From Thermosipho africanus Ob7 (lineage in GTDB: Bacteria; Thermotogota; Thermotogae; Thermotogales; Fervidobacteriaceae), in contig NZ_NKRG01000007.1 of NCBI RefSeq assembly GCF_003351105.1, positions 1 through 64,000 on the forward strand: a stretch of 64,000 nt of DNA, read 5' to 3'. The notes below the pieces were generated by a model, which was not told the origin of the DNA, did not search any database, and saw only the letters and a list, made by a program, of their open reading frames with translations. Of the stretch, positions 6,782-63,342 are shown piece after piece; the first letter of the stretch is position 1, and each line of letters opens with the position of its first letter. The translations under genes were made by a program, and so were the position numbers.

Positions 6782-7661
6782 AATTGGTCTTGCTCCAATG
6801 GCCGGAGTAACTAACTGGAGCTTTAGAAAGCTCTGCTTTGGATTTGGGGCAGAGTTTGCATACACAGAGATGATAAGTGCTGAAAGTGTAATTAGAAATT
6901 TAAAAATAAACGAGTATTATTTTCCAAAACCTGAGGAGAAAGACAAAGTAGCAATCCAAATCTTTGGATCTGACCCATTTGTTATGGCGAAAGCTGCTTC
7001 AATGCTTGAAAATATGGGGGCGTGGATAGATATAAATGCAGGGTGCCCTGTAAAAAAAGTTGTAAAAAAAGGTGCTGGTAGCGCCCTATTAAAAGATCTA
7101 AATAGGTTAAAAAATATAATTATGCAAGTAAAGTCAGCTGTAAGTTGTAAAGTTTCAGTTAAGGTAAGGATAGGATTTGAAAAAGATGAATTTGAAAAAA
7201 TATATGACACAGTTGTTGATGCTGGAGCCGATATGATCGCAGTGCACGGTCGAACCGCAAAACAAATGTACTCTGGAAAGGCTACGTGGAATATAAAAAA
7301 CAAAGGTTATATTCCACTTTATATTAACGGAGATATACATTCACTTTCTGATGCAAAACGTGCTATGGAAATTTCAAAAGCTGATGGAGTATTGATAGCA
7401 AGAGCAAGTATTGGAAAACCATGGGTATTTAATGATAAACCCCCTTCATTGTCTGAAATTAAAAAGATCATTTTGTATCATATAGATCTTCTTTACAGTG
7501 AAATAGGAGAACGTGCTGCCCAAGAATTTAGAAAATTTGTAGCAGGTTATACAAAAAATTTACCAAATTCAAGACAATTTAGAGCAAAAGTCATGAAAAT
7601 AAATGACGTGGAGACTTTAAAGAAAGCTTTCGAAGAATATCTTACATCTATTTCATTTTAG
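6771..7661 (+). CDS. dus: tRNA-dihydrouridine synthase
   Basis: This 296-residue FMN enzyme reduces uridines in the D-loop of tRNA. It shows the Dus N-terminus LAPMAGVTNWSFRKLC, the catalytic-cysteine motif NAGCPVKKV (about residues 90-98), VKVRIGF, the flavin-contacting VHGRTAKQMYSG and NGDI. The GTG start at 6771 lies six bases behind GAGGAGG and overlaps the nadD stop by 11 bp. Its specificity (DusA, B or C type position) cannot be set from sequence alone. The enzyme is slightly short at the C-terminal helical domain compared with 320-residue homologues. Confidence 0.93.
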   Translation: MIGKIGLAPMAGVTNWSFRKLCFGFGAEFAYTEMISAESVIRNLKINEYYFPKPEEKDKVAIQIFGSDPFVMAKAASMLENMGAWIDINAGCPVKKVVKKGAGSALLKDLNRLKNIIMQVKSAVSCKVSVKVRIGFEKDEFEKIYDTVVDAGADMIAVHGRTAKQMYSGKATWNIKNKGYIPLYINGDIHSLSDAKRAMEISKADGVLIARASIGKPWVFNDKPPSLSEIKKIILYHIDLLYSEIGERAAQEFRKFVAGYTKNLPNSRQFRAKVMKINDVETLKKAFEEYLTSISF

Positions 7662-61908: not shown

Positions 61909-61940
61909 TATAATAATGTTACCGTTAACGTTACCGTAGC
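61909..61940 (+). promoter_or_regulatory. promoter -10 box with operator-like repeats before the GPH transporter gene
   Basis: TATAAT (61909-61914) is followed by GTTACCGT (61918-61925), TAAC and a second GTTACCGT (61930-61937). The overlapped centre CGTTAACG (61923-61930) is a perfect palindrome, and the CG-centred TAACGTTA (61926-61933) resembles LacI-family operator cores. It differs in sequence from the 14631 site, so another regulator is implied. The -35 box is poor (TTTCAT, 61885-61890). Confidence 0.55.
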
Positions 61941-61963
61941 AATATTATGAAGGAGGGATAGTT

Positions 61964-63311
61964 TTGGTAGAGAAGTTACCTTTTTGGAAAAAAAATTATT
62001 TATGCCTTGGGACAGCTTGGGTGGTCATTGACAAGCTTTGCAATTGCAAATGTTCTTGTTTATTTTTATATGCCACCGGAGGGTGTTAACTTTCCAGAAT
62101 TTATTAAAAGGGGACCGGTTTTTTTAGGTCTAACTATTGTAGGTCTTGCGCTAGGTGTATCTAGATTGTTTGATGCGGTAACTGATCCTTTGGTTGCAAC
62201 TTTGTCTGATAGAAACAGGATGAAACTAGGAAGAAGAAGAGGTTTTTTAGCAATTAGCGTTCTTCCTTTTGCAATATTTTCATTCTTGCCTTTTTTTCCA
62301 CCTTCAAGTGACCATACAATTAACACTATTTGGTTGTTTTTGACCGTTATTCTTTTTTACTGGTTTATGACAATGTATGTTACGCCTTATTTTGCATGGA
62401 TGAGTGAACTTGGTCATACACCAGATGAGAGGCTTCTATTGAGCACTTTAATATCAATAACTTGGGCAATTGGTTATGTTTTAGGAACACAGATATACCT
62501 TTTCCAAACAATTTTGGAAAATAAAGGATTGACTCCATTAAAAGCTTTTCAAACGATAACCTTAATATACGGATTAGTTGGTTTTGTATTTATGCTTTTG
62601 CCGGTAATTTTCATTGATGAGAATAAATATTGTGAAAAGCATACAGTTAAAGAGAAGGGTTTAGAATCAATTATAAACGCTTTTAAAGAAAGAAATTTTA
62701 GATTATTTGTTCTCCAAGATTTCATATATTGGTTTGGTCTTACAGGGATTAGTCTTGGACTTGTTTACTATATAACTGTTTTACTTAAATTACCAAAAGA
62801 GCATGCATCACAAGTTCAGTTGTTAATGTTTTTACTTTCATTTATTTTTTATATCCCTGTTAACTTTTTGGCAAAAAAGTTTGGAAAGAAAAATTTGTTA
62901 ATAATAGGATTTATAGTCTTTTCATTGGATTTTGCGGTTGCAGCAATGCTTGGAAAATTAAGTTTTTCTCCGATTATGCAAAGTTATATAATTGCAGTAC
63001 TTTCTTCAGTACCACTTGCTATTTTTGGAATATTACCAAATGCAGTTATTGCAGATATTGCAGAAGCACATGGAAAAGAAACGGGGAATTACAAAGCAGC
63101 AGTATTTTTTGGTGCAAGAACATTTATGCAGAAGATGGGACAAACATTTGCTGGACTAATTTATCCTTCATTATTTATCCTAAACAGTGAAACAATTGGA
63201 GAATTTGGGTTAAGAATTAGTGCAATATTTTCTTTAATATTGATGGTTTTGGGAACAATAATTTTAGTTTTCTTTAATGAAAAAAAGATACTTGAGATAT
63301 TAAAAAAATGA
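61964..63311 (+). CDS. GPH-family sugar:cation symporter (MFS), frameshift in A8 near the start
   Basis: From the TTG at 62007 the frame reads a 434-residue glycoside-pentoside-hexuronide carrier (about twelve helices, GLALGVSRLFDAVTDPLVATLSDR near the start). Family members begin about 14 residues earlier with a PFWKK segment. That segment is encoded at 61964-61993 in another frame, behind AAGGAGGGATAG at 61949-61960, and the two frames meet at eight A residues (61988-61995). With seven As the reading frame would be continuous. Options are a sequencing error, slippage during transcription, a recent mutation, or a true start at 62007. The operator-like repeats upstream suggest sugar-regulated import. 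Confidence 0.75.
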
Positions 63312-63342
63312 AGGTGCTTGAAAGCACCTTCATTTATTTTCT
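63302..63342. terminator. bidirectional terminator between the GPH carrier and ileS
   Basis: TGAAGGTGCT (63309-63318), loop TGAA, AGCACCTTCA (63323-63332). T-rich runs follow on the plus strand (63333-63340) and on the minus strand (after 63309), and the stop codon TGA of the GPH gene is in the stem. It also terminates ileS from the other side. Confidence 0.85.

Follow-up and report, generated by a model that had tools for sequence, protein, structure and literature searches.

An apparent frame break at a run of eight As near the start of a GPH-type sugar carrier gene in Thermosipho africanus Ob7, probably a homopolymer miscount

The gene for a GPH-type sugar carrier in Thermosipho africanus Ob7 is split close to its start by a run of eight As. 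The eighth A probably arose when this homopolymer was miscounted in the Ion Torrent/Newbler assembly, and the carrier is probably an ordinary, intact one. This reading is favoured because of the type of assembly together with an excess of similar breaks at A runs in other conserved genes of the same genome. In the cell the run would most likely consist of seven As, and the carrier would be translated from a TTG codon at 61964 behind a strong ribosome site. That the extra A of this run belongs to the data and not to the DNA is our inference.

The split start of the carrier gene

The carrier gene lies near the end of the window, which is the whole stretch of DNA analysed (64,000 nucleotides). 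The features at and around the gene are as follows.

61921–61939, + strand: operator-like palindromic stretch with a core GTTAACGTTACC at 61924–61935, one mismatch from GGTAACGTTACC
61949–61960, + strand: Shine–Dalgarno region AAGGAGGGATA, read from the sequence
61964–61987, + strand: 5' coding segment of the carrier with a TTG start (LVEKLPFW), matching the N-termini of orthologues
61988–61995, + strand: A8 run where the frame breaks; it is most likely an A7 that was miscounted, judged by the orthologue codons, the Ion Torrent assembly and the census of A runs
62007–63311, + strand: long open frame of 434 amino acids, the body of a GPH/MFS_2 cation:sugar symporter
63306–63335, either strand: two-way terminator-like hairpin of 13 pairs that separates the carrier from the convergent gene below and has a T-rich tail on each strand

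The start of the gene is laid out as AAGGAGGGATAGTT-TTG(61964)-GTAGAGAAGTTACCTTTTTGG-A8(61988–61995)-TTATTTATGCC-TTG(62007), with TTATTTATGCCTTG directly 3' of the run. Read straight through, the frame that opens at 61964 encodes LVEKLPFWKKNYLCLGTAWVV... (its protein is also given as LVEKLPFWKKNYLCLG...) and ends at a stop after 41 codons. With one A removed, the 61964 segment and the 62007 frame fuse to give LVEKLPFWKKIIYALGQLGWSL. The spacing of the Shine–Dalgarno region suits TTG 61964, and the sequence holds no ribosome site before TTG 62007. The latter codon was considered as the main start and rejected, as it has no ribosome site and its use would remove the conserved WKK. The run is unremarkable in itself, the 64-kb window containing 14 A/T runs of 8.

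The split start at 61964 and the A8 tract had been described in an earlier note on this DNA and are confirmed here from the sequence and the N-termini of the orthologues. Its statement that seven As would fuse the frames also holds, as the A7 version matches the orthologues without a gap. The note had given the protein start as MVEKLPFWKK; the position of the start and the ribosome site stand, but the codon is TTG rather than ATG, so that the segment reads LVEKLPFWKK.

Orthologues and the state of the long frame

The long frame from 62007 matches the Pfam MFS_2 family with 151.4 bits (cut-off 27; E = 3.5e-44; residues 2–386), which bears out the assignment to the GPH sugar carriers made in the note. 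It misses the curated cut-off of the NCBIfam model TIGR00792 (gph), with 116.5 against 231.35 bits. The carrier is thus GPH-related but falls outside the curated TIGR00792 subfamily, so that the label 'GPH-type' is safe for the family but does not extend to a substrate.

Using the protein read across the break as query, a search of the family, which returned 20 genomes, found orthologues in eight, of which seven are full-length and one (in genome G001) is broken, with about 73–79% identity. All eight copies start xE[KR]LP[LM]WKKWMYALGQLGWSL in one frame, the N-terminus of the G001 copy being intact. The two lysine codons are AAAAAG, AAGAAG or AAGAAA in the orthologues; none of them has a run of 8 As, and TGGAARAAR is read in a single open frame. 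Compared with the family, the frame break at the A8 run is, on the aligned sequences, exactly one surplus base. As the joined N-terminus aligns with the orthologues free of gaps, the eight upstream codons represent the real 5' end of the gene and not a chance frame.

Upstream of the orthologue, GGTAACGTTACC or its TAACGTTACC part is found in all of these family copies except L059, and the Ob7 genome contains one other copy of the operator-like 12-mer with one mismatch (C3:20965). This pattern suggests that the site before the carrier may be a conserved control site of the LacI type.

The 434-codon frame contains no further stop or frame break. Carrier dN to the orthologues is 0.165–0.189, against 0.161 between two intact relatives (L053 and L054) at a similar distance; dS is saturated in all comparisons but one (2.4), and hence no ratio is given. 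By this measure the long frame is evolving no faster than its relatives. A long-standing pseudogene was rejected on account of the normal dN and the lack of extra lesions, and the same two observations indicate that the break, if real, is recent.

The broken orthologue in G001 (L060/L071, G001:C6, about 106.5k) loses its frame in the middle of the gene, at about codon 105. This break falls in a TTTC-rich stretch that, on visual comparison, is about four bases shorter than in the family, and there is no long A run near it. The contig that carries this orthologue is also present as L001, a Thermotogota MAG.

More distant relatives of the carrier, with 39–56% identity, come mainly from spirochaetes. 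The carrier is thus distributed over T. africanus Ob7, other genera of the Fervidobacteriaceae and spirochaetes, with only distant homologues in three other congeners (G012–G014). This distribution would point to transfer or differential loss. A second T. africanus copy of the carrier was found neither among the 20 family genomes nor in viral contigs.

Breaks at A runs elsewhere in the Ob7 assembly

The Ob7 assembly (NKRG00000000) was published as 23 contigs of 1,933,435 bp, sequenced on an Ion Torrent PGM (PMC6211235, Table 1) and assembled with Newbler 2.6, Ob7 being the sole strain of that study on this platform (PMC6211235). The assembly used here is identical in both contig number and length (23 contigs, 1,933,435 bases). 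With the kit studied by Bragg et al. (2013, PMC3623719), the per-read accuracy of PGM homopolymer calls falls to about 68% for runs of six bases; the same paper names frame-shifts in assemblies as a result of indel errors.

A census of frame breaks compared 864 kb of Ob7 (45% of the genome, window included) with the 1.9 Mb genome of T. melanesiensis BI429 (G014; 1,915,238), which is a 454/Sanger assembly (PMC6211235). Genes were compared both ways by tblastn, and 740 Ob7 genes were tested. Six further conserved genes (6/740) have a single break at a run of seven to nine As and are otherwise collinear. The breaks, and the loci of the six genes, are listed below.

Breaks at A9: C1:207.2k, C1:236.4k, C3:142.3k and C2:102.6k
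Break at A8: C1:180.6k
Break at A7: C1:151.0k
Genes with a surplus A: L141 near 7215–7232, L142 near 16380, L158 near 2297, L096 near 2603, L090 near 570 and L088 near 11020

Each of the six breaks is mended by the removal of one A and none has a missing A; this direction in 6/6 cases gives p = 0.03 under an even split. For one of the A9 breaks the evidence depends on a first segment that is short, at 17 residues. By appearance, the proteins encoded would include a FliA-type sigma factor, a glutamate-synthase-like oxidoreductase, an M42-type peptidase and an ABC permease. Breaks outside homopolymers are nearly absent from the Ob7 sample, and no other break was found among the 46 genes tested in the window.

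Coding A9 runs are broken in 4/7 cases in Ob7 against 0/12 in BI429 (Fisher p = 0.009, indicative as the junctions were sorted post hoc), and A/T runs of at least 8 in 5/159 against 0/249 (p = 0.009, indicative for the same reason). A8 runs are broken in only 1/136 cases in the tested Ob7 genes, which means that most A8 calls in the assembly are right. Positions close to the start of a gene, the A8 run of the carrier among them, mostly escape the census. Twelve Ob7 junctions were listed, and visual inspection removed six of them, which were extensions upstream of a start, an antisense frame judged spurious or a gene resembling a transposase. Most of the 12 BI429 junctions were likewise accounted for by extensions of this kind, overlaps with tRNAs, the knock-on effect of an Ob7 break or one multiply broken cluster (1356–1365k). 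This decayed cluster contains one BI429 break at an A7 run, in the missing-base direction, and when it is counted the contrast per gene is weaker (6/740 against 1/741, p = 0.07). Sorting of the junctions followed sight of the data, so that all of these p-values are indicative only.

The tested genes of Ob7 contain fewer long A/T runs than those of T. melanesiensis (A8 136 vs 189, T8 16 vs 45, T9 0 vs 3), although G+C content is similar.

The excess of single surplus As in Ob7 looks like homopolymer miscounting. For the carrier, such a miscount is also consistent with the conserved family sequence on both sides of the break, the ribosome site, the retention of the operator-like site, and a long frame free of further lesions with an ordinary dN. 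The low share of A8 runs that are broken (1/136) counts against it, and so does the direction of the breaks, since an A is in excess in the six sampled genes and in the carrier and is lacking in none. The PGM has been reported to under-call long homopolymer runs (PMC3623719), and the direction expected is therefore the opposite; the direction seen is unexplained.

Alternative explanations and comparison with known systems

If the eighth A were real, a +1 slip at a replication hotspot of seven As might recently have inactivated the carrier in Ob7, leaving a young pseudogene. Long A runs are mutational hotspots, the carrier is dispensable within the family, given the three congeners with distant homologues only, and the G001 orthologue is broken by a different lesion at another site. 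Yet a null allele of this kind is unlikely: the gene has no second lesion and its dN is not raised, hardly any breaks lie outside homopolymers, and six other conserved genes with the same type of break, including the FliA-type sigma factor and M42-type peptidase (by appearance), exceed what real inactivation would be expected to produce.

A real eighth A could also be tolerated, with RNA polymerase slippage on the A8 run, or a rare ribosomal shift, yielding some in-frame messages and some carrier, and likewise at the other A8 and A9 breaks. A runs are slippage sites: in insect endosymbionts 12–50% of the transcripts of poly(A) runs are corrected, and the dnaX gene of T. thermophilus makes use of slippage (PMC5009743). 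A surplus A lengthens the run, as rescue by slippage would favour, and all seven breaks are of this kind. However, insertions predominate in slippage at A/T runs: in Buchnera 151/157 insertions are located in homopolymers compared with only 16/57 deletions (PMC5574713), whereas the frame of the carrier is restored by the loss of one base or the gain of two. In addition, the orthologues do not have the tract, and the platform alone could yield the pattern. These points make it very unlikely that the carrier is expressed in this way. It is highly improbable that T. africanus carries a whole set of genes with real surplus As (A8/A9) expressed through RNA polymerase slippage, as a free-living counterpart of the poly(A) rescue of endosymbionts.

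The RNA fold of 61988–62090 is no better than shuffles (z = -0.76), giving no sign of a stimulatory 3' structure, and programmed ribosomal frameshifting with such a structure was rejected on this result. A slippery tract conserved in relatives was likewise rejected, as the orthologues do not have the run of 8. A regulated or tolerated shift, put forward in the earlier note, is thus disfavoured by the absence of both tract and fold and by the predominance of insertions in published cases of slippage. The note had left sequencing error and slippage side by side; error is now favoured by the platform and the census, and slippage has gained no positive support.

The run lies at codons 9–11, and phase switches are known to occur at homopolymers near the 5' ends of genes, so the gene might be on with A7 and off with A8, the assembly having caught the off state. 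Carriers of the GPH kind are not usually known as phase-variable genes. Homopolymers are proposed as phase switches in PMC2831843, but A8 runs are common in Ob7, at the counts given above for the tested genes and the window, and mostly in frame, and relatives have not retained the tract. A switch at this run is extremely improbable.

A miscounted A7 remains the preferred explanation of the break. As the Ob7 assembly has an excess of breaks with a surplus A, claims of gene loss or recoding made from it need checking. Should the bases prove real, the genes concerned would be a good place to seek slippage rescue in a free-living thermophile.

The carrier can be compared with three known systems. 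It shares with poly(A) slippage rescue, as in T. thermophilus dnaX and the endosymbionts of insects (PMC5009743), a run of at least eight As, a frame-broken gene and an AT-rich genome, but would need the rarer direction of slippage at a tract that is not conserved. With the homopolymer errors of the PGM (PMC3623719) it would have in common a single-base error in the length of a long A run, in an assembly from that platform, that breaks an otherwise intact gene, although the literature describes mostly under-calls, and the carrier and the six genes have runs one base too long. Relative to the GPH/MFS_2 symporters of the Fervidobacteriaceae and spirochaetes the Ob7 carrier has TTG in place of ATG, an apparent frame break, and LPFWKKII where its relatives have LP[LM]WKKWM. 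To those of the Fervidobacteriaceae it is similar over its full length (74–78% identity), with the same N-terminus and the operator-like GGTAACGTTACC upstream.
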